DNA of 64,000 bases from Thalassospira australica (GTDB taxonomy: Bacteria > Pseudomonadota > Alphaproteobacteria > Rhodospirillales > Thalassospiraceae): positions 1-64,000 of the forward strand of contig NZ_JRJE01000004.1 in NCBI RefSeq assembly GCF_000763295.1, in the 5' to 3' direction. The notes beneath the pieces were generated by a model, which was not told the origin of the DNA, searched no databases, and saw nothing but the letters and a program-made list of their open reading frames with translations. Positions 37,673 to 64,000 of the stretch are shown piece after piece. The number at the start of each line of letters is the position of its first letter. The stretch's first letter is position 1. The position numbers and the translations under genes are program-made.

Positions 37673-37982
37673 TTAGCGCCGCACATCATTCAGCGCCCAG
37701 TCATAGTGATACTCATCAACCTCAAACGCAGTAACAGCTGACAACGTGGCTGAAAGCCAAGGCCCGGCAAACTGCGCAAGATGGTCGATGAAATCAGCAT
37801 CACTCTTGCCAAAATCATCGCGATACCAGTCATACAGGCTTGAAAGCACAAACGCGCCGTCTTCGGCCTGAGTCACCGCCCGCGGATGATTGATGAAGCC
37901 GCGTGCTGCCGGATCAAGCTGCGCCTCCAGCTTGTCGGCTTCATAGGCCTCTGGCGCCAGTGCCGGACAGCCAATCGAGAAT
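37673..37982 (-). pseudogene. DUF547 gene 3' fragment (partial duplicate)
   Basis: Encodes only the C-terminal ~100 residues of a DUF547 protein, from SIGCPALAPEAYEADKLE onward. Bases ~37764-37980 are roughly 95% identical to 39578-39793 inside the intact DUF547 gene, while the last ~30 codons differ (ending YDWALNDVRR against YDWALNQLSVD). A frame from 38005 reads across the junction but its first codons belong to the inserted segment. It is the remnant of a second, diverged DUF547 copy cut by the 37983-39483 segment. Confidence 0.85.
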
Positions 37983-46162: not shown

Positions 46163-49100
46163 TTGCAAGAAGAACAAAGAGATGTCGTGGCAGGGACTGA
46201 CAGCATATTTTATCCCCTAACATCACCACAGGCCGCCATCTGGCTGGATATGGTCCGGGGGCATGATCCGTCACGCTACAATATTTGCAACGTTTTTGAT
46301 TTTAAGGGCGCGCTTAATGTCGGAAAGTTGCGTCAGGCAATCGTTCAGACAGATCACGAAAATGACGCACTTAGACTGTGCTTTGCAGTCCGCAATGGCG
46401 AATTACAGCAACATTTCGCCCCCACCAACCGCCCCATTGAGTTTGAGGTAATTGATCTTCAGTTCGAAGTAGATCCAGAACGCATTGCCCGCCAAAAGGT
46501 CGCGCAGTTTCGTGAACGTGTTTTCGACCTGGAAAATGGCGAGAATTGTCGCCATCAGGTTTTGCGCCTTAGTGAAACCCGTTACTGGTGGGCTCGGGTC
46601 TACCATCACATTGTGTGCGACGGGTATGGCGGCCATCTCATGGCCGAACGCAATGCGGCCATCTACAACGCGCTCAAGAGTGATGAAGCCATCCCTGACT
46701 GCCCTTTCAAATCCTATCGCACGTTCATTGAAACGGACAACGCCTATCCGCAAACTGCGACATATGCACGCGATGTCGCTTATTGGCGTGAACGCCTGAC
46801 CCCTGATAGATCACCAACAAGTTTGACAACACTACCGATCCACGCGCCCCAAAAAGATGCGCAGGTAACGATCCCGCTTTCGACAGAAACCCTTGATGCC
46901 CTTAATGTGACGGCACGCAATGCTGGCACGACGCCCACCGCAATCCTTATGGGACTTTTCGCCATATTCCTTGGCAAGGTCACAGGCGAGCGGGAGCCGA
47001 TGTGGAACTTGCCCATCCTCAACAGATTGGGGCGGGAAGAACGTGAAACGCCGGGTGCGTTTTCCTGCATAATTCCCTACACGGTCAAATTGGATGAACA
47101 GAAAAGCATTCTGGAATTAAGCGATCAGATCTTTAAACAATCACGCGGCGACATTCGCCATGTCCGAATGAGCCCTGTGCGCATGCGTGATGCCGGACTT
47201 GGCCTTCGTAGCCTAACAGCGACCGGCGCCACCTTTAACAGTCTGGACGCAGCAACCGCGATCCATTTTGACGACCTTTCTGTCAGAAGAATCAACGTCT
47301 ATCACGGGCCTGCCGACGATATCGGGCTGGCATTTTTCTCAGAAACGATTTCGCCATCCGAACAAAAGTCCGAGCTGATCTGGCAATATGATGCCAACCG
47401 CATTGACGCCCAGACGACACAGGCATTGACGGCCGCTTTTTCGCGACTTCTTGATATCGTTTTGGCAAACCCGGACCAAAAAATTGGCGTGTTACTTGAT
47501 CAGATTGACATTGATCCCGTCCATGTCGAAGCCCTTCGCCCCAAGGGTTCCAATGAAACCTTTGCCGCACGGCTTGCCACCTATGTGAAGGATGTCTGGG
47601 CTGGAATTCTTGAGATTGATGATCTCGAGATTGATGAGAATTTGATTGTGGCTGGCGCGCATTCGCTTTTGCTGCCGCGGGCGCAAAGCATATTTGCTGA
47701 ACTGGCAGACCGAGTGATCAAGCTTGAGGAAATGCATGAATACCCGACAGCCCAAAGCTTTGCCAACAATCTGATAAAGACCAGCTCGCGTTTGGATGAA
47801 ACACGCCTGAAGGCGGCCATCGACCGTCTTGTCACACATAGTACCAAGGCAAAAACGGCTGCAAAACCAACAGTCCCGCTGCAATGGAAGGATGGCACAA
47901 TTATCTTGCCATTCGCGGCCAGAAGCCGGGATGAGCTTGATAAAAATCTCAGCACGGCACTTCGCCGCCTTGAACAAGGGGCGGCACCGGAAAACCTTGG
48001 TGATCTGGGGCAAGCAACGCCGCATCAGCCTGAAAGCTGCGAACGTTCTGTCATTGTCGGAGTATCCACCGAAAGCATCATCAATTCCCTTGGACGTCCG
48101 GATGATCATGGTCATCTGATAGGGCGCGTTGATGCACCCCAAAATTCTATCGTTCTGCTGTTCCCTGGCCAGGGGGCTCAACGTCCTGGCATGGCTCGCG
48201 CACCTTACGATGCTGATCCCGTATCGGCGCAACTGATTGACGCTGCCTGCAAATCTGTTGTGCGCCACAGCGGCCCTTCTGACTTGCGCGACTTGTTGCT
48301 TTACGCTGATCAAAGCACGGCCAGTATTGAGAAACTCATACGGACCGATTACACCCAGCCTGCCCTGTTCATCACCGAGTATGCCAAGGCAAACTGGCTG
48401 ATGCGCCTTGGCATCAAGCCGACAGCCCTGCTCGGGCATAGCATTGGCGAATATGTCGCTGCCTGTCTGGCAGGTGTCATGCAATTTGATGATGCCTTGC
48501 GACTTGTCGTCATACGCGGCAAATTGATGAGCCAGACCGAGCCGGGCGCAATGTTTGCGCTGTCGATGACAGAAGACGAAGTCGACGAAATCCTGACAAG
48601 GTTTGGTTCGGATTTATCCCTGGCAGCAAAGAATGGCCCCCGACAATTTGTTGTGGCCGGAAGCTTGTCTGTTATTGACGCGGTTGAAGCACATATCGCC
48701 GAGACTGGCAAAAAAGGCCGCCGCCTCATTGTCTCGCGTGCATTTCATTCAAAAATGATGGAACCGGTCCTCGATCGTTTCCGCAATGCTTTCGATCAGA
48801 TCGAATTGCACGCCCCAACGATTGAAATACAATCAAATCTGACGGGCACAGCCCTTCGCCCGGAAGACGCAACTAACCCGGATTACTGGGTTTCCCACCT
48901 CCGAAATACCGTTCGGTTTGCCGACAACATCAATCAACTCAAAACATCCCATCCCGACGCCCTGTATGTTGAATGCGGCTTTGGAAATACCGCAAGCCGC
49001 TTGGCAACCGTCAATGGTATTGCATCAACCCAATGCATTGCCTTGCACACTGATCTTAACGCGGGCGCTACCGATGCGGACCAACAGGCATCCCCTAACC

Positions 49101-52100
49101 CACTGGCCATCGGGCTCGCGAACTTATGGCTACATGGGGTTGGAATTGAGTTTGGCGATGGTTCTGCGGACCCAACCTATCCGTGGGCACAAGTAGAAGA
49201 CGAACGCGGCGCGGTTATTACCTCATTCCAGCCGCATCCTGCGGTCGCCGGTCAGTGGCTCGCGCGTCGTGATCTTCCATCGGATGACAGCTATCACATC
49301 GTTGTCAGTTTCCGTCTGCCTTTTGACACATCGTTCGACGCCCTGAAAACCGCGTTCGAAAAAGTCGTCGCGTCTTATGATTCATTCCGTTCAACCTTCG
49401 TTGAGCGAAATGGTGAACTGCTTCAGCGCGTGCATGAAAGCATGTCGGTCCCAATCAATGTCGTCGAGCATCTTGAAGACATTCGTCATGGGCTTTTTGA
49501 CCTTAAAAACGGACCGCTTCTGCGCGTTGGTTACTTGGCGCAGACGAGTGTTTCGCCACCGATCGTCGTCATTGCGATTGACCATATCTGTTTTGATGGC
49601 CAATCCCTGCCGCTTCTTGAGAAAGCGGTTATTTCAGCACTTGGAAACGATGGGTCAGAATTCCCCAAGCAGAATTCAAGGGAAATCGCGAAGCTTTCTC
49701 TTGAGGCGCTTGAAGGTCAACGCGGGGCGCTTGGTGCTGCGTTCTGGAAAGAACGTAGTGAGCTTTTGTTGGGTCCTTCGCTGCCCAAAAATGCCGAGAC
49801 CAGAGCCAGCAACACGGTAAAACGGTGCTTTGTTCAACTTGACGAAGCCCAGGTAAACGCGCTCGAGACTGTCAGAACCCATCTGGGAACGGCAACACCA
49901 ACCGCGCTTTGGAATGCGTTGGTATTGGCGACGGTAGCACATTACAAAACCGGTAATGCCGCCGTCATTGGGCAGCCGTTTTCCGGACGTGTCGCGCCAG
50001 AAACACGCGAGGCAATTGGGTGTTTTGCCAATGTTCTGCCCATTGCGATCAAACCAGATATGTCAGCCGGGATTGGCGCACTTGCACAGCAAATCAGTCG
50101 CGAAATGCTGTCGATCATGGATGTTCAGGATTACCCGCTGCTACGGATCATTAAGGATCTTTCAGTCATTGAACAGCGACATGTGGACCTTCCGTTCGAT
50201 ATCGTGAGTACGATCGAGATCAATCCCGATCTGTATGAAATCGATGATGTCGACTTTGGCGGCGGCAAGTTCCCGTTGATGGCAACGCTTGCCAAGTTTG
50301 GCGCGGGTACGTTCCTGTCGATTGAGCATTTCACATCCCTTTACAGCGAAAGCTGGGCAGAACGCTTTGCCCATAGTTTGCTTTCACTTATCACATCGCT
50401 GGCGGAAAACCCGGACAAACCGCTAAGCGCTGTTGATTTCTTGCCCGCAGGCGAGCGCAACCGACTGATCAACGAATTCAACGATACCGCATCTGAATAC
50501 CCACGCGATGAGGGACTTGGCAGTTTGCTTGCCAAGCAGATCTCCGATGATCGACAGGCCGACAAAACAGCAATTGACGACGGTAAGAGCCGGATTACCT
50601 ATGCAGAGCTTGGCATTCTATTGTCCGATGTTTCCGGCAAGCTTGCTCAGATTGGTGTCAAATCCGGTGATACGGTCGCCTTTGCGTCTGAACGTAATCT
50701 TGATGCCATTCTGGCGATGCTTGGTATTGTCTGGCATGGCGCGGTTTACTTGCCAATTGACAAGTCGCTACCTGCTAATGCCATCGCAGAGCTGATGGAA
50801 GAATGCGGGGCAACGACACTGCTGTTTGATGCAGCGGAAAAGGACCGTCTGGCACAGCTATCGGATCGCTTCAAAGTCGCGCCATTGCCCAAGGGAGATT
50901 TGAAATCGGGTGTCGAGTTCAAAGCCCCGGACGAACGTCGTGGTGATGACCTTGCCTATGTCATGTTCACATCCGGATCGACCGGCAAACCCAAGGGTGT
51001 TCTGGTGCCCAACCGGGGCATTGTCCGTCTTGTTGTGAACAACAAAACACTTCCGTTCGACGAACATGATGTGATTGCACAGGCCGCATCGCTTGGCTTT
51101 GACGCGGCGACACTGGAAATCTGGGCGGCACTTCTAAACGGTGGGCGGTTGTTTGTACTTGAGAACGACGCCCTGTTTGATCTGTCAGCGCTTGGCGACA
51201 AATTGCGTGATGCAGGCGTTACGACAATGTGGATGACAGCAAGCCTGTTCAACCTGATTGCTGATGTTGCCCCCGAAGCTTTCAAACCGCTAAGACGTTT
51301 GATGAGTGGCGGTGAAGCGCTCAGCCCGGTTCATCTGCGCAAGGTTCGTGCGGCCTGTCCGGATGTTGCACTGATCAACGGGTATGGCCCGACTGAAAAC
51401 ACCACATTCACCTGCACTCACCTGATTACTGAACATGATCTGGAAACCGGGTTGATCCCGATTGGCAGGCCGATTGGCAATACTCGGGTCTATGTTTTGG
51501 ATGATGCCGGTCATTTGGTTCCGACCGATGTCTGGGGTGAGTTGTATGCCGCAGGTGATGGGCTGGCCCTTGGCTATACGGGTGCGCCGGAACGCACCAA
51601 AAAGGCCTTCGTTCAGATCCCGGGTATTGATGAAGAACGGCTTTATAAGACCGGTGACCGGGTGCGCTGGCGTGCGGATGGCAACATTGAGTTTGGCGGG
51701 CGTGGTGATGGTCAGGTCAAAATTCGTGGCCACCGTATTGAGCTGAATGCGATTGAAGAAAAACTGCTTGCCCTTGATGACATCCGCAATGTTTGCGTCA
51801 TGCCGATTGGTCAGGGGGCGGATGCCTTTTTGGGCGCGGCGATTGCTTCTGATCATGATGTACGGGATGCTTGGGTATCGGTTTTGGCGCGCGACTTCCC
51901 CGACTATATGGTGCCTGAACGTTTTGTCGTGCTGGAACACTTGCCCGTTAATGCCAATGGCAAAGTGGATCGCAAAAAGCTTCAGGCTATCCTTGCCGAA
52001 GAAGAACAGGTAAACGCGGCTTCACCTGAAAGCGATAACGCGCTTGAGGCGTTTGTCATCAAACAATTTGGGGTCCTGTTCCCGAACAAGGCAATTACAG

Positions 52101-55100
52101 CTGCGACCGATTTCTTTGCCCTTGGCGGACATAGCCTGATTGCCATGCGACTGGCTGGCATGATTGAGGAAGAAACCGGCTACCGCCCGAAGCTTCAGGA
52201 AATCTTTGCGGCACGTACGCCTGCCAATATGGCCCTTTTGGCTGCCAAGCATCAAACCCAGCCAAAGCAGACCGCTCTGGCAAGCAAGACGGACACAAAA
52301 TTTGCGCTGTCCAGTGGTCAGGCACGTTTGTGGGTTCTGCAGCGTATGGAGCCGGAGCTTGCGGTTTATTCGGTTCCGGTCACGCTTGATATTGCGGGCC
52401 CCGTCGATGCCGCTGCCCTGCAACGCGCACTTCATAAGCTTGAAGAACGTCAGCATGCCTTGCGCTTGCGGTTTAAATCCGATCCCGATCATCCCGATGG
52501 GGTCAGCCAGTATCTGGCACCGGTTGGATCGCTTGAAATGATCCACCATCACATGGATGCGGCAGCAGCCGACACCTTTATAGCCACAGAAGCAGTCCGT
52601 CCATTTGATCTGAACGATGCATCCATGGTGCGCGCGCAGCTGATTACGGTGGCCGATGATCGCCATTGCCTGATGATTACACTGCATCATGCGATTTGCG
52701 ATGGCTGGTCGATGCCGATCCTGCTTTCAGAGCTGACAGAACTTTATCACGCAGAGCTTGCCGGCACGGCAGCGAAACTTCCCAAAATCGAACGTCATTA
52801 CGAAGATTTCGTTTCCTGGCAGCGTGACTATTTGAACGGTCCTGAGGGTCAAGAAGCCCTTGGACGGTGGAAAGAACGTCTGGCACAATTGCCTGAGCCG
52901 CTTAATCTGCCGAGTGATTTCCCGCGCCCGGTCGAACGTAAATTTGCCGGTGACTTCTATGAGTTCGAATTGGGTGCTGCAACAACCCGACTGATCGAGC
53001 AAACCGCACAGAGATTTGGCGTAACCGCCTTTAACACCCTGACTGCACTTTTGCAGGTCTTGCTCTATCGGCATTGCGGTCAAAGCGATGTTGCGATGGG
53101 CATGCTGGTGGCAGGGCGTGAACATTCATCGCTTGATCGTCTTGTCGGGTTCTTTGTGAACACGGTTTTGATCCGTCAGAAACTTGATCCCGATGCACGA
53201 TTTGAAAGCCATCTGGCGCAAACGCAAAAGGTCATTCTGGATGCGGTTTCGGATCATGCCATCCCGTTTGAGGATGTGGTCAACGCGGTGAAGGCGCCGC
53301 GCGATCTGTCACGCAATCCGTTGTTCGATGTTCTGGTAGCCTGGCAAGATAACCTTCCGGGTGGCGCGAAGCTTGGCGATGCCAACGCAACCGTTCGGGA
53401 GATTGAATTCCCGTTCTCCAAGTTCGATCTTGGTTTCTATTTCTGGCGCGATGACAGTGCGCTGTGTGGATCGGTCGAATTTGATACCGGGTTGTTCGAG
53501 CGCCCGACCATCACATCCTTGATCGAGCGACTTGAAACCTTATGCCAATCAGCACTGGGCGACAGCGTGGACGTACCGCTTCGCGAACTTACCATTCTGC
53601 CCGAACGGGAACGCGCGCAGATTGGGTCCTTTAACGCTACACAAACAGACCTTCCGATTGATCGCAGCATCTCCGAACCGTTCTTGGATCAGGTTGCAGC
53701 AATCCCCGAACGGGTTGCGGTTCAGGATGATGTGGAAGCGCTGAGCTATCATCAGTTCGCCCGTCGTGCTGCAGGTATTGCCAAACTTCTGAAAGACAAG
53801 TCGATTAAGCCCGGCGATGTTGTCGGTGTAGCCATTCGCCGGTCGGTCAATATGCTGGCCGCCATTCATGGTATCCTTCTGTCCGGTGCGGCCTATAGCC
53901 CGCTTGATCCCGATCATCCCGAACAGCGCCGCAAGGATATGCTTGATGACCTGGGCGACGGTTGGGTGATCACGACATCAGATCTGGCCCACCTGTTTGA
54001 TGCGGACCGCACCATCCTGGTTGACGGGTCGGAAGATGCCGACATCCCTGCACTTTCAAACGGCCCGAATGATCTGGCTTATGTTCTGTTTACGTCGGGC
54101 TCCACCGGCCGTCCCAAAGGGGTCGAGATCGCCCATCGCGGCGTTTTGAACCGTATTTTGTGGATGCAAGATGAATTCCCGCTGGGTACGGGTGACGTGA
54201 TCTTGCAGAAAACGCCGATCACGTTCGATGTGTCGGTTTGGGAGCTGTTCTGGTGGTCATGGACCGGATCAAAGGTTGTCCTGCCCCCACCGGGCGCAGA
54301 ACGTGACCCGGCTCAGATTGCCGATGCTATCCATGACAACCGCGTCACGACCATGCATTTCGTACCATCGATGCTCTCAGCCTTTTTGACTGCGGTTGAA
54401 AGCGGTATGGTCGATTTGAACAAGCTGGCATCCCTGCGGCGCGTCTTTGCCAGCGGCGAAGCATTGGATGCTTCCGTTGTTCGCCGTTTCAATGCGCTTT
54501 TGTTTGAGCGTTTCGGTACGGAACTTCACAACCTGTATGGCCCGACCGAAGCCACAGTTGATGTCACCTGGCAAGCGTGTTCGCCTCAAACCACGGGTGA
54601 CGTTGTACCGATCGGCAAACCCATTGCCAATACCACGGTGCAGATCCTGAGCAGTGATTTCAAACCGCTGCCGATTGGTGTCGTGGGCGAGATCATTTTG
54701 GGCGGACCGCAAATCGCGCTTGGGTATCGCAACAGGGCCGAACTGAGTGCCGAGAAGTTCCCGGCTGATCCAAGTGATCGCGGTGATCGTCTGTATCGCA
54801 CGGGTGATCTTGGTCGCTGGCGACGGGATGGAACGGTCGAATATCTTGGCCGTATTGATCATCAGGTCAAAATTCGTGGCTTCCGGATCGAGATTGGCGA
54901 GGTTGAAGTCGCACTGGAAAGCCATCCGAAAGTGGAACGTGCGCCGGTGATTGTCGCGTCGGTTGCTGGGCTGAATGAGCTTCATGCTTTCATTTTACCA
55001 TCCGGTAACATTGATGCGATTTCACTGCGCGATCATCTGCGCAGTCGCCTGCCGCAATACATGATCCCTGCCCGGTTCTTTGCCATTGATCACTTGCCGA

Positions 55101-58100
55101 TGACAAGTAGTGGCAAGGTTGATCGCAAGGCGCTCAAAGGCACGCCAATCCGCGCACGTTCGACAAGTGCGGGTGCTAAGGCACCATCGACGGCATCCGC
55201 GACAGCGACCGGGACTGAAAACAGCAAGTCACTTGAAGCTAAAGTCGCGAAGCTTTGGGCAGAAATTTTACCCGAGGTCACGCCAATACGTGATGACGGG
55301 TTCTTTGATATTGGTGGCAATTCGCTGTTGCTGCTGCGGTTGTTTGAAAAATTCGAAGCCAATTGGCCCGGCCGTGTCGGAATTGCTGATTTATTTGCCA
55401 ATCCGACGATTGCCAAGCAGGCAGAATTGATTTCCGAAGATGCCACGTCGCCGTCAAACTTGGGCACACTGGCGTCAGACGCCCCTATTCTTGCCAATAA
55501 TGAACCAATTGCCGTGATTGGCATGGCCGTTCAGGTTGCTGGCGCTGACACCATTGACGGGTTCTGGGATGACATTGCCGCGGGTCGCGACCTTGTGCGT
55601 GCCCTGCCAGAGGCGCGCGAAGCAGATACACGCGAAATCCTGGGCGCGATCGGCAGACCGGTTCCGAACAAGTTCCGCGAGATCGCCTATCTTGATCATT
55701 TGTTTGAATTTGATGCGCAGCGTTTCCGCCTTTCGCCGATTGACGCCGGATTACTGGACCCGGAACAACGATTGTTCATTGAAACAACACTGATGGCGGT
55801 TGAGGATTCCGGTTATGGTGGCAATGCATTGCGTAGCCAGAAAGTTGGCGTCTTTGCCGGTGGTGGCACCAGTCCGATCTGGCGCATGGCGATGGATCAG
55901 ATTTCACCGAGCAAGGCCGAACAAGCCTTCGCGCTAAACGTTCCATCAAACATCGTCACCCGGCTGTCATTCCTGAAAGACTGGCATGGCCCGGCCAATA
56001 TTGTTGATACCGCATGCTCTTCTACACTCGTCGCTGTTCATCAAGCCTGTCAGCAATTGCGCGATGGCAGTTGCACGGTGGCTATCGCCGGTGGGGCGAA
56101 AATTCTGCCCTGCCCGCCGGATGCAGACAGTTCCTTTACGATTGATTCGTCAACTGCCCGCACCCGTGCGTTTGACGCCCATGCCGATGGCACGGGCGTA
56201 GGCGAAGGCAGCGTTGTATTTGTCCTCAAACCGCTTAGCAACGCGTTGCAGGATGGCGATACCATCCACGCCATCATCCGTGGCAGCGCGGTTAATCAGG
56301 ATGGTGCATCAAGCGGGGCCGCAGCCCCCAACCCGCTGATGCAGGCAGAAGTCATTCGTGATGCCGCGCGTGCCGCCGATATCGAACTTTCGACGGTTTC
56401 CTATTTCGAGGCACATGGCACCGGAACATCACTTGGCGATCCGATTGAGATTGACGGACTGACCCGGGCATTCAAGGATCGCAAACCGGCCCAAAACCGT
56501 GCCTTCATCGGATCGGGAAAAGGCAATTACGGTCATCTGGACGGCACAGCAGGGGCACTTGGTCTGGCGCGTGCAATCATGGTGCTGCGCCATGATCAGG
56601 CACCGCCGCAACCTCACTTCGAAGCCCCGAACCCCAAGATCAATTTCGACCATGCACCAGTTGTGGTGACAAACAAGCTGGCCAAGCTTCCCGATCAGGG
56701 AACGCCCCGCCGTGCAGGTGTTAGCTCATTCGGGCTAAGCGGGATCAACGCCCATATTCTGATCGAAGCAGCCCCGGAACGGAGCAAACATTACGAAGCT
56801 GATCAAAACAAGGAAGCAGCCTTGGTCTTTGCCCTTTCGGCAGGAAGTCCCGAAGCGCTCCGAACCTATGCAACCAACCTGCATCACCGAATCAGCAATG
56901 ATGCTAGCCTTTCGCTCAAAGACATTGCCTTTACGCTGGCGACCGGGCGTGATCGGTTAAAATATGGCATCGCTTTTGCTGCGGATCATCGGGCGGACCT
57001 TCTTGAACAGCTGCTTGATATCGCAACCGGCATTACCACACCGAGCATGCAGGCTGAAAATGACGATGCGCCAGTCTGCGAAGTTGTCACGGCAAAGACT
57101 GCAGACGCAGATAAACAGGCAGCACATTATCTGGCAGGTGGTGCGCTGCACTGGCCATCAAACATCAAGGCCCGCCGCCTCTCCTTGCCGCCAGCACCAT
57201 TCACGCGCAAAAGCTTCAAGCCAACCTTTGAAAAGCGCGCCAAAGCCGTTTCAAACGACATGCTTCAAGGGCCAGTTTCAACGCCGAGCGCGCACGTCTT
57301 TAGCGTCGCGATTGATGACCCGCGCTTCTGGCCGTTACAGGATCATAAGCTTAATGGCCAACCGACACTGGTCGGCATGGCGGTCCCTGCCCTGATCGCC
57401 AAAGCGGCCACGAAACTGCGTGCAGATGACACTGCCCCAATCAACATCAGCAATCTGGTCTGGCACACGGCGTTGGTTGCAAACGCGGTACCGGATGGCA
57501 ATGTGAGCCTGAGCTTTGCTGATGACGGCTCCGTCGAGCTTGGCGGACGCCTTAAGAACGGAAAGTGGCGCGTTTTTGCGACGGCCACTTGGCAGTCGGA
57601 TCCTCAGGCAACAGCGCCAAAATCAGGCTTTGCGGACATCCGGGCCCGTGCAAGACTGCAGGTTCCCGTCAATGACTTCAGCGGGAAATACGGATCGATC
57701 GAAATCAGTGATCGCTGGGACTGTAACCAGTCGCTCCATATTAGCAAACGTCAGGACGCGGCGATCAAGCACCTGCGGCTCAAACCCGAATATCGGGGTG
57801 ATTTGGCGGACTGGTTGGTTCATCCGGCCCTTGCCGATGTCGCATGCAGCATTCCGTTGATGACGCTTGATAGTGGATATGTGCCCGTTGGTGTTGATCA
57901 GGTCACCGTTTATGGCGTTCAGAGCAACGAAGTCTATGCCTGCTTCGAGCAGTATAAAAACGGGTACGGAGAGGTCGCGCTTTACGACGTCAAGACAGAA
58001 CAGCTTGTAATGCTGGCCAGTGGTCTTAACTTCGCAAAAAGTGGCGAAAGAGCAGAACAGCTTCGCCCGCAGATTCTTGAAACAGTCTGGCGCATATCGC

Positions 58101-61100
58101 CTGTATCAACTGCCAACATTCAGGAAGACTTCCTGTTCATCACCGACGCAGACGATCCGTCTTGCCAAACCGGCTATCGGACCATCCGCGTAGATCAGAT
58201 CACCAAGGATAGTTTGAGCGGCGTTTCCCATGCCGTCCTGATGCTAAGCCCCAATGAAGACAGTGCGCATCGCACAGCAAACGCCCTGCGAAAGATATTA
58301 CAAAACATGCAGGGTCGCTTGCGCCTGATTGTCGCTGGATGTGGTGCGTATGGGATTGCCGATGATCTGATTGCCATCAATCCGGGGCAATCCGCAGTAG
58401 CAGGTGTGGCACTTGCGGCAGCAAGGGAAGAACCGCAGCTGCAACTGAGCTACCTCGACATTCCGGGCAATGCGTTGTTGGACCAGCTTGGTAAAGAACT
58501 TGCAATCCCGCCTGCCACTGACCCCATCGTCCTTTACCGAAACGGGCAGCGCTATGTGCGTGATCTGACATTGGCAACGAGTGATCGGAAAAAGGAAGAG
58601 ACTAGTTGGCCAACGAGTGGTGTTTGCGTCGTTACCGGTGGTACAGGTGGCTTCTCGATCGCGCTGCTTGAAGAATTTGCCAATAACGGCAAGGTCAGGC
58701 TGGCTCTGCTTGGCCGTCGCGACGAAGATTCCCTCGATGATCCTACCAAAGCCAAACTGACGGACCTGCGCAATCAGGGCCTCTCGATTTCCGTTCATGC
58801 TTGTGACGTTGCCGACGCGGTTTCACTTGGCAAAGCGCTTGAGACCGTTCGCACAAACCATGGTCCGATCCGTGCCGTTGTCCATGCTGCCGGTATTGCC
58901 GATGGTGAATTCCTTGTCCGCCGGGATATGGCAAAGTTTGACAATATCCTTGCGGCCAAAATGGTTGGTGCGCTTAACCTAGACCGTCTGACACGCGATG
59001 ATGCCATTGCGGCATTTGTCATGTTTGGCAGTCTGACGGCAATCAGCGGCGCGCCGGGGCAGACAGCCTATTGCGCGGCCAATGCTTTCCTTGATGGATT
59101 GGCACATCAGCGCAAGGCAGATGGGAAAGCCGCCCTGACGATTGACTGGTGTGCGCTCAGCGAACAGGGCATGGCGGCACGTCATAATGTGCTTTTGGAA
59201 GACGGTGCCTGGATTTCCCCGAAAGATGCTAAAACGATCTGGCGCGACGCCATCCGTTTGACGTCCGCCCAATTGACCGTCGTTGACCCGTCATTGGTCC
59301 AAACACGTAACGCGACTCAATCAGCTGCCACTCGGAAAGTAGCTAAAGGAGCTCCCCAAAGCGTTACCCTCAGTGCCCGACAACAGATCGCTGCGATATG
59401 GGCCGAGGCACTTGGTTATGACAGTGTGGATGCCAACGACGACTTCTTTGCTCTGGGTGGGGATTCCATCACCGGCATGCAAATTGTCGATCGTATGAAC
59501 AACACGCTTGGCACGGAACTGAGCATCTCTGATCTGTTTTCTGCGCCAACAACGGCTGCCATTGCAGAACTCGCTGGTATGCCTGAGACAGGTTTTGTAA
59601 AGCCTCAGCCCGCACCTGCGATGGAACCTACGGCGACAAATTCGCAAGGCGACAAAGCACCATATGCCGCGATCATCGCGATTTGGGCCGACGCACTCGG
59701 CTATGACACGATTGACCCGGATGAGGACTTCTTTGCACTGGGTGGAGATTCCATCACGGGCATGCAGATCGTCGATCGCATCGCCAAGGATCTCCGACTT
59801 GATGTCAGCCTGACGGATCTGTTTGAGCAATCTACGATTAGCAAACTGGCCGCAAAGCTGCTGGACACATCTGAAGCAACACCCCCCGACGTTTCAGGTG
59901 GCATGAATGAAGCACCCACAACATTGACGCCCAAAACGGGCGTCAATGTTGAACCAACCACGATTGATCCGCGCAAGGCGCCGAAACTTGATCGTTATCC
60001 GATTTCGCTAGAGCAACTGTCCGTCCTGAACGCTTCGCAGAAGGGCAATATGGGCACAGCGTTTAACCTGCCGCATGCCTTTGTCATCGACCCGTCAGTT
60101 GACCTGAACCGCCTGAAAGAGGCAATCCGCGAGGTCACCAAACGCGAGAACGTCCTGCGCACGCGCATTATCCATAATGCGTCTGAAGAAAGCTGGCATA
60201 TGGGGATCATCGCGCCCGAGGACGCCCTGGCCAGCCTTGATCTTGATGTTCGCAGGGTTGAAGGATCGCTTAGTGAAGCCTGTGTTGCACAGATACGCCC
60301 GTTTGATCTTGATGATGGTGTTCCGGTGCGCTGGATGCTGCTGCAGGATCAATTTGGAAAAAATGCACTGTTCTTTGATATTCACCATGTTCTCGCTGAT
60401 GGCTTCACAACTGAGCGCATCCTTGGCGAGGTGGTGTATGTTTTCAGCGGCAAAGCGCTGCCACCATTAGGGTATCAACTTAACGACTATGCGTGGTGGA
60501 GCCAAAACGAAGAAAACACCAAACGCATTGCCGCCGCACGCAACTATTGGCAGTCGATCTATGCCGAAAGTCTTCCCAAACTGGATTTGCCATCGGATCG
60601 TCCGCGCCCGGCTTATCACAGCTTTAATGGCGCGATCACATCGCTTGTCATTGATCAGGACCTGCTTGCCAAGGCACGAAAGTTTGCCTCTTCAAATCAT
60701 GTGACGATGTATACCCTTGTGATGGCAACCTGGTTTACGTTGCTTGGCCGTTTGGCAAAGACCAATGACGTGGTCATCAGTGTTCCTGTTGATGCGCGTG
60801 ACGCGACAGGCTTTCGCGATACATTGGGCATGATGGTTTCCCTGTTGCCGATGCGCATGCAGTTCGATGGCACAGAGAATGTGGCGGACCTGCTTGCACG
60901 CATGCAACGACATCATATCGAAGCGATGCGCCACCGGGCCTACTTCCTGGATCAGTTGCTGCATGACCTGGCACCACCCGCGGCACCGGATCGCACCCTG
61001 CTGTCGGAAGTTTCGGTTTCCTATATGAACTTTGAAAGCACTGGTGTCGGGCAAGATATCGTCAAGATTGCTTCAGAAGGCATTGAGGTCCATCGCCATC

Positions 61101-62977
61101 ACTGCAAAAACGACATCTCGATCTTTGTGCGAGATGTTCCTGAACAGATGACCGTGGCTCTCGATTATTACGCCGACATGTTTGATCGCGATTCCATGAA
61201 CGATCTTTGTCGCGCCTTTGCCGAGACACTTGAGCATATGGTGAATTCCGAAACCCGATTGATCCGGGATATCGACTTTGTGTCTGGATCACCGCTTTCC
61301 AAACTGCGCCACTGGCACAATGAGCCCGAAACGCAAGCTGGCGCGATGTCGAGCCCCGCGATATTGAATGCGAATAGCTCAGAAACTGTCAGTGTGATCG
61401 CAGAGATCTTCAGCGAAGTTTTCAAAAAGCAGATCACTGATCCTGCGACAAGTTTCGTGAAGCTTGGCGGCCACAGCCTGCTTGCGATCCGGATCGTCAA
61501 CCGTATTGCTGATCGCACCGGTTCACGTATTAGCATGGCCGATTTCTTTGCCCATCCGACCGTCGCCGGACTTGCGGGACTGATTGATCGCAACCAAGGC
61601 GACGAAACGAACCAACAAGACGCACGCATTCCTATTGCCCCCGACATGGCCGTTTATCCGGCAAGTCACGCGCAGAAGCGCCTTTATCTGTTGTCCGAAA
61701 TGGCACATGACAGTGGTGCGTATGGCATGCTCTATGTCCTGCGCTGTGACGGGACGCTGAAACAAGATGCCCTAAGGACCGCACTGACAAGTTTGGTGGA
61801 ACGGCACGAACCACTGCGTACCGCTTTTGAACAAGGCGATGATGGCATTTACCAACGTATCACCACGGCCTCGGCCCCGGATGTTACGGTTCACAACATC
61901 GCAGTGCAGCCCGATCCGGTGCGCGAAGCCCTTCGTCTTACTCGCGAAGAGGCTGCCACACCGATCGATTTGGATCAGCCGCCGCTTATTCGTGCATCAA
62001 TTATAAACGTCGCGGATGATGAACAGCTTCTTGTCATCGCAACACATCACATTGTCGGTGATGGCTGGTCATCACGCATTCTGGTTCAAGAACTTGGTAT
62101 TTTCTATCAGGCTGCGCTGAACAACCCGGTTGCGGACCTTCCGGCCCTTCCGATCACCTATAAGGACTTTGCCTATTGGCAGTCCCAACAGGATTGGTCG
62201 GATGCGGCTAATTACTGGCGGGAAAAACTGTCCGGTGCGCCAGATCAGATTGCACTGCCGTTCGACCACAAACAGCCTGATGTTCAATCCTACCGCGGCG
62301 CGCATGTACATATGGGGATTGATGATGACGTTCTGGCCGGATTGAATTCACTTGCACGTGCGCACAATGCGACGCTTTCCTCGGTTGGCATGGCGCTGTT
62401 CTCCGCGATGTTGTACCGACTGACGCGTCAGGAAGATCTTGTCATCGGCATGGGTGTTGCGAGCCGCGAGAAGACCGAAACCGAAGGCTTGATTGGCTTC
62501 TTCGTTAATGTATTGCCAATCCGTGTGCAGCTCGATGCCGAGACGGAGCTTGATACCCTGATTGACCACATTCACGTCAATCTGACTGAAGCCCTGGATC
62601 GCCAAGATTATCCGTTTGATGAGCTTGTCCGTGCCGTCGCCCCAAAGCGCAACACCAATAGGCAGCCGCTTGTGAATGTCGTGTTTGAATATCAACGGTT
62701 TGGTGCACTTGGTGGTGAAGAAACAACGCAGCCAGGCTTGCCCATGCTAGCGCCAGATCAACCCGGTATGCTGTCAGACAAAATGGATGCGTTTGTCGAC
62801 AACGCGACGGCAAAACATGATGTGATCCTTTTCCTGCAAGAAGAAGATGGAAAAGCACGCTTCACATTGGAATATGATACTGATCTGTTTGATCATGAGA
62901 CGATGCAGAAATGGCTCGGATTCCTGACAAGATTTGCTGCTGCAGCAGCGCAGAGCCATACGAATAAGAATGCTTAA
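46163..62977 (+). CDS. Hybrid NRPS-PKS megasynthase (C-T-AT-C-A-T-C-A-T-KS-DH-KR-T-T-C-T-C)
   Basis: A 5604-residue assembly-line enzyme. The start is TTG with GAAGGGA 7 bases upstream. Order (approximate residues): C1 (10-440, HHIVCDG at 148), T1 (Ser501), AT (660-985, Ser760), C2 (1005-1430, DHICFDG at 1140), A1 (1440-1940), T2 (Ser1991), C3 (2050-2480, HHAICDG at 2175), A2 (2500-2985), T3 (Ser3054), KS (3115-3545, Cys3285), DH (3715-3990, H3728, D3892), KR (4025-4390, Ser4290, Tyr4303), T4 (Ser4435), T5 (Ser4530), C4 (4610-5030, HHVLADG at 4741), T6 (Ser5105), C5 (5160-5590, HHIVGDG at 5295). Codes predict Val (A1) and Ser (A2). The Ser unit would be extended with malonate and dehydrated. 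There is no AT after the KS and no A in the first and C4-T6 modules. It ends in a C domain, so the peptide passes to the next gene. The thalassospiramide-like logic is inferred. Confidence 0.95.
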   Translation: MQEEQRDVVAGTDSIFYPLTSPQAAIWLDMVRGHDPSRYNICNVFDFKGALNVGKLRQAIVQTDHENDALRLCFAVRNGELQQHFAPTNRPIEFEVIDLQFEVDPERIARQKVAQFRERVFDLENGENCRHQVLRLSETRYWWARVYHHIVCDGYGGHLMAERNAAIYNALKSDEAIPDCPFKSYRTFIETDNAYPQTATYARDVAYWRERLTPDRSPTSLTTLPIHAPQKDAQVTIPLSTETLDALNVTARNAGTTPTAILMGLFAIFLGKVTGEREPMWNLPILNRLGREERETPGAFSCIIPYTVKLDEQKSILELSDQIFKQSRGDIRHVRMSPVRMRDAGLGLRSLTATGATFNSLDAATAIHFDDLSVRRINVYHGPADDIGLAFFSETISPSEQKSELIWQYDANRIDAQTTQALTAAFSRLLDIVLANPDQKIGVLLDQIDIDPVHVEALRPKGSNETFAARLATYVKDVWAGILEIDDLEIDENLIVAGAHSLLLPRAQSIFAELADRVIKLEEMHEYPTAQSFANNLIKTSSRLDETRLKAAIDRLVTHSTKAKTAAKPTVPLQWKDGTIILPFAARSRDELDKNLSTALRRLEQGAAPENLGDLGQATPHQPESCERSVIVGVSTESIINSLGRPDDHGHLIGRVDAPQNSIVLLFPGQGAQRPGMARAPYDADPVSAQLIDAACKSVVRHSGPSDLRDLLLYADQSTASIEKLIRTDYTQPALFITEYAKANWLMRLGIKPTALLGHSIGEYVAACLAGVMQFDDALRLVVIRGKLMSQTEPGAMFALSMTEDEVDEILTRFGSDLSLAAKNGPRQFVVAGSLSVIDAVEAHIAETGKKGRRLIVSRAFHSKMMEPVLDRFRNAFDQIELHAPTIEIQSNLTGTALRPEDATNPDYWVSHLRNTVRFADNINQLKTSHPDALYVECGFGNTASRLATVNGIASTQCIALHTDLNAGATDADQQASPNPLAIGLANLWLHGVGIEFGDGSADPTYPWAQVEDERGAVITSFQPHPAVAGQWLARRDLPSDDSYHIVVSFRLPFDTSFDALKTAFEKVVASYDSFRSTFVERNGELLQRVHESMSVPINVVEHLEDIRHGLFDLKNGPLLRVGYLAQTSVSPPIVVIAIDHICFDGQSLPLLEKAVISALGNDGSEFPKQNSREIAKLSLEALEGQRGALGAAFWKERSELLLGPSLPKNAETRASNTVKRCFVQLDEAQVNALETVRTHLGTATPTALWNALVLATVAHYKTGNAAVIGQPFSGRVAPETREAIGCFANVLPIAIKPDMSAGIGALAQQISREMLSIMDVQDYPLLRIIKDLSVIEQRHVDLPFDIVSTIEINPDLYEIDDVDFGGGKFPLMATLAKFGAGTFLSIEHFTSLYSESWAERFAHSLLSLITSLAENPDKPLSAVDFLPAGERNRLINEFNDTASEYPRDEGLGSLLAKQISDDRQADKTAIDDGKSRITYAELGILLSDVSGKLAQIGVKSGDTVAFASERNLDAILAMLGIVWHGAVYLPIDKSLPANAIAELMEECGATTLLFDAAEKDRLAQLSDRFKVAPLPKGDLKSGVEFKAPDERRGDDLAYVMFTSGSTGKPKGVLVPNRGIVRLVVNNKTLPFDEHDVIAQAASLGFDAATLEIWAALLNGGRLFVLENDALFDLSALGDKLRDAGVTTMWMTASLFNLIADVAPEAFKPLRRLMSGGEALSPVHLRKVRAACPDVALINGYGPTENTTFTCTHLITEHDLETGLIPIGRPIGNTRVYVLDDAGHLVPTDVWGELYAAGDGLALGYTGAPERTKKAFVQIPGIDEERLYKTGDRVRWRADGNIEFGGRGDGQVKIRGHRIELNAIEEKLLALDDIRNVCVMPIGQGADAFLGAAIASDHDVRDAWVSVLARDFPDYMVPERFVVLEHLPVNANGKVDRKKLQAILAEEEQVNAASPESDNALEAFVIKQFGVLFPNKAITAATDFFALGGHSLIAMRLAGMIEEETGYRPKLQEIFAARTPANMALLAAKHQTQPKQTALASKTDTKFALSSGQARLWVLQRMEPELAVYSVPVTLDIAGPVDAAALQRALHKLEERQHALRLRFKSDPDHPDGVSQYLAPVGSLEMIHHHMDAAAADTFIATEAVRPFDLNDASMVRAQLITVADDRHCLMITLHHAICDGWSMPILLSELTELYHAELAGTAAKLPKIERHYEDFVSWQRDYLNGPEGQEALGRWKERLAQLPEPLNLPSDFPRPVERKFAGDFYEFELGAATTRLIEQTAQRFGVTAFNTLTALLQVLLYRHCGQSDVAMGMLVAGREHSSLDRLVGFFVNTVLIRQKLDPDARFESHLAQTQKVILDAVSDHAIPFEDVVNAVKAPRDLSRNPLFDVLVAWQDNLPGGAKLGDANATVREIEFPFSKFDLGFYFWRDDSALCGSVEFDTGLFERPTITSLIERLETLCQSALGDSVDVPLRELTILPERERAQIGSFNATQTDLPIDRSISEPFLDQVAAIPERVAVQDDVEALSYHQFARRAAGIAKLLKDKSIKPGDVVGVAIRRSVNMLAAIHGILLSGAAYSPLDPDHPEQRRKDMLDDLGDGWVITTSDLAHLFDADRTILVDGSEDADIPALSNGPNDLAYVLFTSGSTGRPKGVEIAHRGVLNRILWMQDEFPLGTGDVILQKTPITFDVSVWELFWWSWTGSKVVLPPPGAERDPAQIADAIHDNRVTTMHFVPSMLSAFLTAVESGMVDLNKLASLRRVFASGEALDASVVRRFNALLFERFGTELHNLYGPTEATVDVTWQACSPQTTGDVVPIGKPIANTTVQILSSDFKPLPIGVVGEIILGGPQIALGYRNRAELSAEKFPADPSDRGDRLYRTGDLGRWRRDGTVEYLGRIDHQVKIRGFRIEIGEVEVALESHPKVERAPVIVASVAGLNELHAFILPSGNIDAISLRDHLRSRLPQYMIPARFFAIDHLPMTSSGKVDRKALKGTPIRARSTSAGAKAPSTASATATGTENSKSLEAKVAKLWAEILPEVTPIRDDGFFDIGGNSLLLLRLFEKFEANWPGRVGIADLFANPTIAKQAELISEDATSPSNLGTLASDAPILANNEPIAVIGMAVQVAGADTIDGFWDDIAAGRDLVRALPEAREADTREILGAIGRPVPNKFREIAYLDHLFEFDAQRFRLSPIDAGLLDPEQRLFIETTLMAVEDSGYGGNALRSQKVGVFAGGGTSPIWRMAMDQISPSKAEQAFALNVPSNIVTRLSFLKDWHGPANIVDTACSSTLVAVHQACQQLRDGSCTVAIAGGAKILPCPPDADSSFTIDSSTARTRAFDAHADGTGVGEGSVVFVLKPLSNALQDGDTIHAIIRGSAVNQDGASSGAAAPNPLMQAEVIRDAARAADIELSTVSYFEAHGTGTSLGDPIEIDGLTRAFKDRKPAQNRAFIGSGKGNYGHLDGTAGALGLARAIMVLRHDQAPPQPHFEAPNPKINFDHAPVVVTNKLAKLPDQGTPRRAGVSSFGLSGINAHILIEAAPERSKHYEADQNKEAALVFALSAGSPEALRTYATNLHHRISNDASLSLKDIAFTLATGRDRLKYGIAFAADHRADLLEQLLDIATGITTPSMQAENDDAPVCEVVTAKTADADKQAAHYLAGGALHWPSNIKARRLSLPPAPFTRKSFKPTFEKRAKAVSNDMLQGPVSTPSAHVFSVAIDDPRFWPLQDHKLNGQPTLVGMAVPALIAKAATKLRADDTAPINISNLVWHTALVANAVPDGNVSLSFADDGSVELGGRLKNGKWRVFATATWQSDPQATAPKSGFADIRARARLQVPVNDFSGKYGSIEISDRWDCNQSLHISKRQDAAIKHLRLKPEYRGDLADWLVHPALADVACSIPLMTLDSGYVPVGVDQVTVYGVQSNEVYACFEQYKNGYGEVALYDVKTEQLVMLASGLNFAKSGERAEQLRPQILETVWRISPVSTANIQEDFLFITDADDPSCQTGYRTIRVDQITKDSLSGVSHAVLMLSPNEDSAHRTANALRKILQNMQGRLRLIVAGCGAYGIADDLIAINPGQSAVAGVALAAAREEPQLQLSYLDIPGNALLDQLGKELAIPPATDPIVLYRNGQRYVRDLTLATSDRKKEETSWPTSGVCVVTGGTGGFSIALLEEFANNGKVRLALLGRRDEDSLDDPTKAKLTDLRNQGLSISVHACDVADAVSLGKALETVRTNHGPIRAVVHAAGIADGEFLVRRDMAKFDNILAAKMVGALNLDRLTRDDAIAAFVMFGSLTAISGAPGQTAYCAANAFLDGLAHQRKADGKAALTIDWCALSEQGMAARHNVLLEDGAWISPKDAKTIWRDAIRLTSAQLTVVDPSLVQTRNATQSAATRKVAKGAPQSVTLSARQQIAAIWAEALGYDSVDANDDFFALGGDSITGMQIVDRMNNTLGTELSISDLFSAPTTAAIAELAGMPETGFVKPQPAPAMEPTATNSQGDKAPYAAIIAIWADALGYDTIDPDEDFFALGGDSITGMQIVDRIAKDLRLDVSLTDLFEQSTISKLAAKLLDTSEATPPDVSGGMNEAPTTLTPKTGVNVEPTTIDPRKAPKLDRYPISLEQLSVLNASQKGNMGTAFNLPHAFVIDPSVDLNRLKEAIREVTKRENVLRTRIIHNASEESWHMGIIAPEDALASLDLDVRRVEGSLSEACVAQIRPFDLDDGVPVRWMLLQDQFGKNALFFDIHHVLADGFTTERILGEVVYVFSGKALPPLGYQLNDYAWWSQNEENTKRIAAARNYWQSIYAESLPKLDLPSDRPRPAYHSFNGAITSLVIDQDLLAKARKFASSNHVTMYTLVMATWFTLLGRLAKTNDVVISVPVDARDATGFRDTLGMMVSLLPMRMQFDGTENVADLLARMQRHHIEAMRHRAYFLDQLLHDLAPPAAPDRTLLSEVSVSYMNFESTGVGQDIVKIASEGIEVHRHHCKNDISIFVRDVPEQMTVALDYYADMFDRDSMNDLCRAFAETLEHMVNSETRLIRDIDFVSGSPLSKLRHWHNEPETQAGAMSSPAILNANSSETVSVIAEIFSEVFKKQITDPATSFVKLGGHSLLAIRIVNRIADRTGSRISMADFFAHPTVAGLAGLIDRNQGDETNQQDARIPIAPDMAVYPASHAQKRLYLLSEMAHDSGAYGMLYVLRCDGTLKQDALRTALTSLVERHEPLRTAFEQGDDGIYQRITTASAPDVTVHNIAVQPDPVREALRLTREEAATPIDLDQPPLIRASIINVADDEQLLVIATHHIVGDGWSSRILVQELGIFYQAALNNPVADLPALPITYKDFAYWQSQQDWSDAANYWREKLSGAPDQIALPFDHKQPDVQSYRGAHVHMGIDDDVLAGLNSLARAHNATLSSVGMALFSAMLYRLTRQEDLVIGMGVASREKTETEGLIGFFVNVLPIRVQLDAETELDTLIDHIHVNLTEALDRQDYPFDELVRAVAPKRNTNRQPLVNVVFEYQRFGALGGEETTQPGLPMLAPDQPGMLSDKMDAFVDNATAKHDVILFLQEEDGKARFTLEYDTDLFDHETMQKWLGFLTRFAAAAAQSHTNKNA
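48140..49117 (+). other. Relocated acyltransferase (AT) domain of the megasynthase
   Basis: FPGQGAQ near residue 667, the catalytic serine in GHSIGEYVAA at 760, and RAFHSKM at 862 (the HAFH-like motif of malonyl-specific ATs, against YASH for methylmalonyl). It sits between the first carrier and the Val-module C domain, not after the KS, where cis-AT modules keep it. Confidence 0.88.
50480..51982 (+). other. Adenylation domain A1, predicted valine
   Basis: Core motifs present: FTSGSTGKPKG near 1603, the GYGPTEN core motif and NANGKVDRK at the end. Reading the ten pocket positions by alignment to GrsA gives DALWMGGTFK, close to the valine code DAFWIGGTFK. The alignment was done by eye. Confidence 0.75.
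53660..55117 (+). other. Adenylation domain A2, predicted serine
   Basis: FTSGSTGRPKG near 2644, LYGPTEATVD, and SSGKVDRKA at the end. The pocket reads DVWHFSLVDK, identical to the L-serine code of EntF. A strong prediction, subject to correct by-eye alignment. Confidence 0.85.
55505..59332 (+). other. PKS block KS-DH-KR
   Basis: KS with Cys3285 in DTACSS, HGTGT at 3418 and GNYGH near 3457. A ~170-residue linker without AT follows, then DH with a His in QDHKLNG and an Asp in HPALADVA. KR has the TGGTGGFS nucleotide motif (last Gly replaced by Ser), Ser4290 and Tyr4303. Linker features recall trans-AT type modules. Confidence 0.85.
59360..59887 (+). other. Tandem carrier domains T4-T5
   Basis: Two adjacent carrier domains, both with FFALGGDSITGMQIVDR around the phosphopantetheine Ser (4435 and 4530), 95 residues apart. 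Their near-identity at DNA and protein level points to recent internal duplication. Confidence 0.88.
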
Positions 62978-62989
62978 AGGGACGTATCA

Positions 62990-64000
62990 ATGAAAATCGC
63001 TGATTTTGATTTCGACAGTCTGGAAACGTCCCTGCCCGAAGCCGCAGAAACACCCGCAGCGCAACTCGGAAGCATCATTGATGCTGTCGCCGATGTCGTC
63101 GCCAAGCATCCCGAGCGGATCGCCATCAAGGATGAGGCTCAGGATATTTCCTATGAGGTTCTTGATCGCGAAAGCAACCGGATCGCCAATTTCATCATCG
63201 GTCTGAACCTGCCCCAAGACGCCATGATTGGCGTCATGACCGGACGTAATCATTTCTACATTTCGGCCATCCTCGGCATTCTTAAGGCCGGGCATCCGTT
63301 TGTGCCACTTGATCCGGCAACCCCCTTGATCCGTCGTATTGCCATTGCCAACAATGCGTCCATTCCGCTTGTCTTGGCTGATGCCGAACATGTGGGGGAT
63401 CTTCACCAATTGCAGTGGCGGTGTGATGGCGTTGAACACATTCTGTGCATCGACCGCGAAAATATTGATGCGATCTCGGAAACGCCGGGTTCACTGATGT
63501 CGGTTGAACTGTGGGATCACCTTGCTGGCGATGATGCAGACAACGTTTTGGCCGGTGGGTGGAAAAGCGCATTCACCGGACAACCGATTGCGCAAGAAGC
63601 CATGGACGCATTTGGCGCAAATGCACGTAACAAGATCGCCAATCTGGTATCCAAAGACGCGCATGTGCTTGAAATAGGCTGTGCTTCGGGCTTTACCATG
63701 AAGCATGTCGCACCGGTCGTCGGAAAATATGTTGCAACCGATCTGTCCCGGCGGAACGTTGAACGTACCGAAGAACTTGCCATCAAGTCAGGCATGACGC
63801 ACGTCATGGGCCGCCAGTTGGCCGCGCACGACATTGATGTTTTCGAGGAACAATCATTTGATCTGATCATTCTCAATAGCGTCGTCGAAAACTTCCCGGG
63901 CTTTGGCTATCTCCGTCAGGTTCTTAACAAGGCTGCCAAATTGCTGGCACCGGGTGGTGCGATTTATCTTGGCAATATCTGGGATGCAGACCGCAAGTCG
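62990..64000 (+). CDS. NRPS gene with adenylation domain interrupted by methyltransferase (runs off window)
   Basis: Starts at ATG 62990, 12 bases after the megasynthase stop, with AAAGGGA spanning that stop codon, so the two are translationally linked. 337 codons are visible and open to the window end. Residues ~1-165 are the N-terminal part of an adenylation domain (a2-like ILGILKAGHPFVPLDPATP near 90-106). Then WKSAFTGQPIAQEAMD introduces a SAM-dependent methyltransferase with LEIGCASG at 227-234 and FDLIILNSVVENFP. No a3 SGSTG motif precedes it, so the insertion lies between a2 and a3, unlike the common a8-a9 site. It would activate and probably N-methylate an amino acid for the C5 domain encoded upstream. 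Substrate and rest of gene are outside the window. Confidence 0.85.
   Translation, partial: MKIADFDFDSLETSLPEAAETPAAQLGSIIDAVADVVAKHPERIAIKDEAQDISYEVLDRESNRIANFIIGLNLPQDAMIGVMTGRNHFYISAILGILKAGHPFVPLDPATPLIRRIAIANNASIPLVLADAEHVGDLHQLQWRCDGVEHILCIDRENIDAISETPGSLMSVELWDHLAGDDADNVLAGGWKSAFTGQPIAQEAMDAFGANARNKIANLVSKDAHVLEIGCASGFTMKHVAPVVGKYVATDLSRRNVERTEELAIKSGMTHVMGRQLAAHDIDVFEEQSFDLIILNSVVENFPGFGYLRQVLNKAAKLLAPGGAIYLGNIWDADRKS

Follow-up and report, generated by a model that had tools for sequence, protein, structure and literature searches.

The first 64,000 nucleotides of contig NZ_JRJE01000004.1 of Thalassospira australica (RefSeq assembly GCF_000763295.1; this whole stretch is called the window below) end in a hybrid nonribosomal peptide synthetase–polyketide synthase (NRPS–PKS) locus that belongs to the thalassospiramide (ttm) lines. 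It lacks domains A1, KS2, T2 and A6 of those lines, has their first two genes fused and retains the acyltransferase of module 2. Thalassospiramides are calpain-blocking lipopeptides, and their assembly line is a kind already known. The locus is very probably a reduced thalassospiramide (ttc/ttm) assembly line, and judged by its sequence the line most likely works. A more specific reading goes further: a single working chain in which three adenylation domains serve five amino-acid carriers, the leftover acyltransferase feeds the PKS module about 3,400 residues further on, the products form a restricted series, and Tistrella shed domains separately. We put this composite forward tentatively, at a probability of roughly 0.35.

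Domain order and family membership

The large gene of the window is a single uninterrupted reading frame whose remaining domains retain their catalytic motifs. Pfam and our own iterated domain profiles give the order C-T-AT-C-A-T-C-A-T-KS-DH-KR-T-T-C-T-C (C, condensation; T, carrier; AT, acyltransferase; A, adenylation; KS, ketosynthase; DH, dehydratase; KR, ketoreductase). The profiles, which were seeded with the domains of the window itself and iterated over the same loci, matched exactly the order read in the original prediction, made from the sequence alone. Pfam, run on the two gene halves, found three and two Condensation stretches (E = 1e-177 and 2e-159, so chance is no issue for the domain calls), one each of Acyl_transf_1, ketoacyl-synt and KR, two AMP-binding stretches plus the tail of the second, split by the halving, and one and four PP-binding stretches, which account for all but the first of the six T domains. 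That one is scored by our profiles only and pairs with canonical T1, and the dehydratase is recognized by two Pfam models slightly above their cut-offs. All five condensation domains found in the genome sit in this single gene. Its parts, numbered by canonical module, and the start of the following gene are these:

46163..62977, + strand: fused ttmA/ttmB-type NRPS–PKS gene, TTG start, 5,604 residues (Pfam, own profiles, position comparison)
46208..47494, + strand: C1, chain-starting condensation position, HHIVCDG present (best match canonical C1, 47%)
47576..47773, + strand: T1, carrier without an A domain, AGAHSLL as in canonical T1 (own profiles; unscored by Pfam)
48146..49039, + strand: orphan acyltransferase AT2, GHSIGEY and RAFH; the KS and T of its own module are gone (canonical AT2, 65%)
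49235..50446, + strand: C3 (profiles, position comparison)
50534..51988, + strand: A3, code DALWMGGTFK, Val (profiles, code reading)
52043..52237, + strand: T3 (profiles, position comparison)
52298..53602, + strand: C4 (profiles, position comparison)
53681..55141, + strand: A4, code DVWHFSLVDK, Ser (profiles, code reading)
55232..55432, + strand: T4 (profiles, position comparison)
55502..56776, + strand: KS5, DTACSS, HGTGT and GNYGHL, without its own AT (KS5 73% versus KS2 39%)
57251..58090, + strand: DH5 (Pfam, profiles, position comparison)
58604..59182, + strand: KR5, TGGTGG and AYCAAN (Pfam, profiles, position comparison)
59381..59860, + strand: tandem carriers T5a and T5b, each LGGDSITG (profiles, position comparison)
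59993..61285, + strand: C6 of the A-less module 6 (best match C6, 55%)
61391..61582, + strand: T6, carrier without an A domain, 35 residues past C6 (best match T6, 75%)
61655..62968, + strand: C7 (profiles, position comparison)
62990..64000, on to contig position 66493, + strand: start of the ttmC-type gene, A-MT-A-T-TE (MT, methyltransferase; TE, thioesterase), 1,167 residues, A7 code DGVDVGAVSK

The line of strain CNJ-328 has seven modules (PMC5577590), and seven genomes with this plan, here called canonical, stood in for that strain. Six of the seven served as reference for a position comparison, which assigned the 17 window domains to C1, T1, AT2, C3, A3, T3, C4, A4, T4, KS5, DH5, KR5, T5a, T5b, C6, T6 and C7 (the T5a and T5b calls having a close runner-up) and left canonical A1, KS2, T2 and A6 without a counterpart. 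Because the reference held ttm domains only, the comparison tests position, not family membership.

Wider searches bear on membership. Against 84,980 species genomes, the DH-KR block first matched Thalassospira, Fodinicurvata and Oceanibaculum lines with the same neighbourhood; against 72,556 plasmid records, KS-DH-KR matched best the ttm gene of Tistrella mobilis (100% covered, 43% identical), followed by a Streptomyces PKS at 31%. Six of 385 genomes in an even draw of the class matched DH-KR at E <= 1e-60, and the opening 1,000 residues of the large gene, used as query, covered 60 genomes, the window's own being included in both counts. Since the best genome and plasmid matches are ttm-type lines, an unrelated hybrid NRPS–PKS family is rejected; the thalassospiramide-class reading of the original prediction, which had named best matches in an unrelated family as its refutation, is thereby supported. 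In addition, the modules run Val-Ser-KS/DH/KR-Val-(N-methyl amino acid) with the TE last, module 6 consisting of C-T only, the binding codes of A3, A4 and A7 are family-like, and the core domains fall inside the family in the trees, the nearest outsiders being those given by the genome and plasmid searches. The Phe/Tyr-loading A1 and the complete KS-AT-T of module 2 that mark the three-gene type are absent from the window; as they are also absent in Tistrella, a producer genus, this marks a subtype and does not exclude the locus from the family.

The original prediction had remarked on the unusual C-T-AT-C order and had left a choice between a reduced family member and a new relative. The former now stands, domain by domain: the order is what remains of modules 1 and 2 once A1, KS2 and T2 are removed and the genes fused. 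The sequence ahead of the AT can still be aligned to the canonical KS-to-AT linker, which identifies the order as a scar of deletions and fusion. No description of a fused C-T-AT-C form was found in searches of one open-access library. The Val and Ser codes that had been read earlier were likewise confirmed; the ten commonly used specificity positions were located on our own alignment and read by the usual assignments. Both codes and that of module 7 are the same as in three-gene lines, the latter being identical in all 13 Thalassospira loci.

The second gene, reaching beyond the window and ending in T-TE, has the layout A(35-145)-MT(196-400)-A(432-802) in our profiles. Its methyltransferase, previously noted as part of an A-methyltransferase gene, sits inside the last A domain (Pfam, own profiles), between motifs a2 and a3 as these are usually placed, and an a3-type stretch, YVLFTSGTTGTPKG, comes after it. 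An a2/a3 interruption is also tabulated for TtcC and TtmB (PMC11355689).

Reduced lines and the history of domain loss

Of 29 Thalassospira genomes searched with the second gene, 13 carry the locus, among them that of the window, and domain profiling divides these 13 into seven three-gene loci and six that are fused and shortened. The canonical genes read C-A-T-KS-AT-T, C-A-T-C-A-T-KS-DH-KR-T-T-C-A-T-C and A-MT-A-T-TE; among the seven, the T. xianhensis locus lies in pieces over several contigs and the DH of T. alkalitolerans is interrupted, about 230 extra residues splitting this region relative to other lines (L035/L036). The last gene of T. profundimaris S25-3-2 (L040, 5813-8845) is shortened within the thioesterase, to 1,010 residues. 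Besides the window, the reduced type comprises Thalassospira sp. HF15, T. lohafexi, T. lucentensis DSM 14000, T. mesophila and sp. MCCC 1A01428, all with the fused gene and the stray AT as in the window; KS2 and T2 are absent in six of six. The HF15 line has the window's order plus a stop codon. Unlike the window, T. lucentensis DSM 14000 and T. lohafexi have two T1-like domains, and T. mesophila and MCCC 1A01428 still possess A6. A second NRPS gene of T. mesophila (L048, 5085-15368; 3,427 residues, C-A-T-C-T-C-A-T-C-TE) also contains an A-less C-T module. The line of genome G038 ends after C6, and an A-MT-A gene was not found on the stretch examined. A 2016 survey in the Journal of Biological Chemistry reportedly distinguished several functional and dysfunctional cluster types with domain loss, and may already list siblings of the window's architecture. 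That new variants and non-producers came up in this survey is confirmed in a review (PMC5577590).

Outside the genus, a plasmid protein search located ttm on plasmid pTM1 (NC_017957.2) of Tistrella mobilis KA081020-065, in two genes: C-T-C-A-T-C-A-T-KS-DH-KR-T-T-C-(A remnant)-T-C, without an AT, and A-MT-A-T-TE. Its codes are DALWMGGTLK and DVWHFSLVDK, and A7 differs (DAIDVGAVGK). This line resembles the window in its two genes, C-T start, missing module-2 KS, incomplete or absent A6, tandem T5 and A-MT-A-T-TE; it differs in having no AT, in keeping an A6 remnant (about 100-130 residues) and in its divergence (best matches 29-64%). The genus Tistrella, rather than strain KA081020-065 in particular, is reported as a thalassospiramide producer (PMC4350077, PMC5577590), so that a producer genus has a line in which A1 and KS2 are missing and A6 is incomplete. 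A truncated A domain has been placed in Tistrella's first module (PMC5577590); in the pTM1 locus (L108, 14766-30413) we saw the remnant in module 6 and none in module 1.

Fodinicurvata fenggangensis DSM 21160 falls in the window's clade and its front is likewise C-T only; unlike the window, it has this C-T as a separate 615-residue frame, lacks the AT and keeps A6. In Oceanibaculum pacificum the front gene is complete (C-A-T-KS-AT-T), and A6 is present. A ttm-like line was also seen outside Alphaproteobacteria, in an Acidobacteriota metagenome-assembled genome (MAG; JAKOTR010000090.1; L063, L113), reading C-A-T-C-A-T-C-A-T-KS-DH-KR-T-C-A-T-C plus A-MT-A-T-TE, with no module-2 KS-AT-T and one FabD-sized AT match in the genome. 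The contig of MAG SV3-B17.1 begins inside A3.

Trees were computed under LG+G4 without a mixture and include several long rows. The concatenated tree of 21 loci groups Fodinicurvata with the six reduced lines of Thalassospira (100/100), beside the seven canonical lines (100/100); Oceanibaculum and a related MAG lie outside both Thalassospira groups, and Tistrella further outside, on a long branch whose placement is less sure. A clade of the six reduced loci without Fodinicurvata receives p 0.366 in the AU (approximately unbiased) test. The last gene on its own gives a tree in which the reduced group is not united: Fodinicurvata stands with T. mesophila and 1A01428 at 81, and the window's four stand apart at 100. 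In the rpoB tree, T. mesophila and 1A01428 join the canonical-line T. profundimaris S25-3-2 (100/100), and this disagreement with the cluster tree implies that line types were exchanged or unevenly kept.

The simplest reading has two independent losses of A1 and KS2, one in Tistrella and one in the lineage of the reduced Thalassospira lines and Fodinicurvata. A6 would likewise have gone twice, in Tistrella and in the subgroup of four to which the window belongs, because T. mesophila, 1A01428 and Fodinicurvata retain it. The Tistrella reduction belongs to a separate lineage if the full Oceanibaculum line lies between, as in the tree. The outermost row, the Acidobacteriota MAG, has A1 but not KS2, so that at the root either gain or loss of the module-2 KS-AT-T is possible. 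A3, A4 and A7 are present in every locus in which the region was read; A1 is lacking in at least two lineages, and so is A6. The lost parts resemble spare copies, and those that remain probably take on second tasks.

Proposed assembly and competing explanations

In the assembly that we consider most likely, C1-T1 would start with a fatty acid and Ser or Val, loaded onto T1 by A4 or A3, and modules 3 and 4 would add Val and then Ser. KS5-DH5-KR5 would lengthen the Ser by a malonate unit, giving the unsaturated gamma-amino acid AHPEA, the malonyl group for T5a/T5b coming from the stray AT (or FabD). T6 would be charged with Val by A3, module 7 would add N-methyl-Tyr, and the TE would close a 12-membered lactone. 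The expected products are thalassospiramides that begin with Ser or Val, in which the chain may or may not return once through modules 3-5; they would be of the A type and lack AHPPA units, for which A1 and KS2 would be needed.

In the family, Val and N-methyl-Tyr are added by the final two modules, with closure of a 12-membered lactone (PMC3705361), a ring conserved in the family (PMC4350077, PMC5577590). Of the acyl-X-Val-(extended Ser)-Y-(N-methyl amino acid) chain first proposed, Y is on this precedent most likely Val, the N-methyl residue would by analogy be Tyr, and X is probably Ser or Val supplied by the A domain of a different module. In vitro, the A1 that was assayed accepts Phe/Tyr only, and Ser or Val at position 1 has been proposed to come from A domains elsewhere (PMC5577590); a 2026 review sums up the thalassospiramide studies as intermodular substrate activation (PMC12943608). 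In a look-up on yersiniabactin, no passage stating A-domain sharing was found. By calculation, the reported formula of thalassospiramide D is reproduced as decenoyl-AHPPA-Val-AHPEA-Val-N-MeTyr. Thalassospiramide A, reported at 957.5 Da (PMC4350077), fits decenoyl-Ser-Val-ADPA-Val-AHPEA-Val-N-MeTyr, which is one fit and not proof. So read, it needs neither A1 nor KS2, and the window line would hold everything it needs, provided that A4 and A3 can charge T1 and T6. If the more specific reading holds, short Ser- and Val-started members with predicted [M+H]+ of 728.423 and 740.459 (decenoyl tail) would be made, with thalassospiramide A (958.550) beside them, and Tistrella would have shed the same spare domains separately.

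Several observations weigh against a working line of the proposed kind. The closest relative, HF15 (94.5% over the large gene), carries a TAA in frame at codon 5364 of its copy, which may be real or an error given an assembler coverage value of 4.9 for the contig. The window locus groups with Fodinicurvata in the 21-locus tree, and for Fodinicurvata a cluster is reported whose product was undetected (PMC5577590). The highest domain dN/dS values between window and HF15 are those of DH (0.331) and T4 (0.222); between T. lohafexi and T. lucentensis the second T1-like domain reaches 1.6 and T4 1.0, on very few changes. All dN/dS values are pairwise NG86 estimates without a significance test, one of the two methods often having failed on short pieces. 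The Fodinicurvata and Tistrella lines have no AT. Finally, the phosphopantetheinyl transferase (PPTase)-like gene downstream scores below cut-offs (Pfam 4PPT_N 21.4 bits versus 27; NCBIfam HetI 23 versus 370) and was missed by an ACPS family search.

It is a serious possibility, though short of an even chance, that the stray AT is idle and that FabD supplies the malonyl units. Absent from the Fodinicurvata and Tistrella lines, the AT is in principle dispensable. The Fodinicurvata genome holds a single weak AT match (28%, in a 370-residue frame), which we took for FabD. FabD is also indicated for barnesin (PMC13096860), and the thalassospiramide pathway appears to use trans ATs of primary metabolism (PMC5577590). 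Against idleness, GHS[IV]GEY and AFH are retained in 14 of 14 aligned AT sequences, and three comparisons between reduced loci give the AT a dN/dS of 0.175, 0.122 and 0.114, even though KS2 and T2 are gone from all six. With these two gone, T5a/T5b are the only PKS carriers left to it in the line, and KS5 has no AT of its own. We infer from these sequence features a role in module 5; the AT is probably used where present and dispensable across the family.

That the locus is a decaying, non-producing ttm relic, broken by the loss of A1, KS2, T2 and A6, is unlikely. Those four losses, the HF15 stop codon and a clade containing a reported non-producer, Fodinicurvata (PMC5577590), speak for decay. 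The window copy is nevertheless one open frame with its catalytic motifs kept, and whole-gene dN/dS is low in three pairs (0.167 for window/HF15, 0.153 for lohafexi/lucentensis, 0.133 for mesophila/1A01428, the dS of this third pair being near-saturated). The orphaned parts are as low as the remainder in the window/HF15 pair (C1 0.156, T1 0.112, AT 0.175, C6 0.133, T6 0.060), and the TE stands at 0.047; of 12 linkers counted, four lie at 0.5-1.4 and eight at 0-0.39. Tistrella, a producer genus, moreover lacks the same domains.

Skipping of module 6, to give acyl-X-Val-AHPEA-N-MeTyr as a smaller ring or linear acid, is highly improbable: the C6-T6 linker has only 35 residues and no A domain, but C6 retains HHVLADG and T6 LGGHSL at the low dN/dS just given, a lactone lacking this residue would have 9 ring atoms by our count where the family conserves 12 (PMC4350077, PMC5577590), and Tistrella, too, has a mere A6 remnant.

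Neighbourhood, significance and known systems

On the 330,663-base contig, the second gene is followed by the PPTase-like gene, two cyclic-peptide exporters exceeding the TIGR01194 cut-off and a type II thioesterase. At least the first of these downstream genes are common to 11 of 12 other Thalassospira loci, reduced and three-gene alike, some stretches ending early; T. profundimaris S25-3-2 lacks them on the stretch examined. A diaminopropionate ammonia-lyase-like gene (L006, 14347-15486) adjoins the exporters and occurs in nine of the 12 other loci on the stretches examined. Recent import as judged by base composition is rejected, the GC content of the large gene being 0.539 versus 0.538 in window 1-45000. 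Within the 1.1-kb gap upstream of it, 45371-45385 reads GTTCGAATCCCTCTC, which resembles a tRNA 3' arm and may be the trace of an old integration; at the left edge, an intact tRNA is rejected, as ARAGORN finds none there. Elsewhere in the window, a 216-base repeat (97% identity) occupies 37763-37978 and 39577-39792. Its second copy lies inside a 276-residue frame, the first in a shorter frame resembling the end of that frame, and two further reading frames separate them; this looks like a partial gene duplication.

Deletions from this megasynthase were seemingly repeated, and the lost A domains come from modules that another A domain can provide with their building block. The reduced lines thus offer a natural test of the inter-module A-domain sharing proposed for thalassospiramides, bear on which domains could be removed by engineering, and yield a sharp chemical prediction, namely A-type but no AHPPA-type congeners. 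A lone AT kept without its own module also bears on the claim that primary-metabolism ATs serve these lines.

Among the closest known systems is the ttc three-gene line (CNJ-328 type), with which the window shares 17 domain positions, the Val, Ser and module-7 codes and the downstream genes, and from which it differs in having no A1, KS2, T2 or A6 and in the fusion of the first two genes. The barnesin (brn) line, likened here by its description, makes a vinylogous amino acid by KS, DH and KR without an AT of its own, with another module number and another product (PMC13096860). Syringolin, a syrbactin, is likened to the thalassospiramides by the description of the compounds: it has an unsaturated amide within a ring of 12 members and binds in a similar way (PMC4350077).

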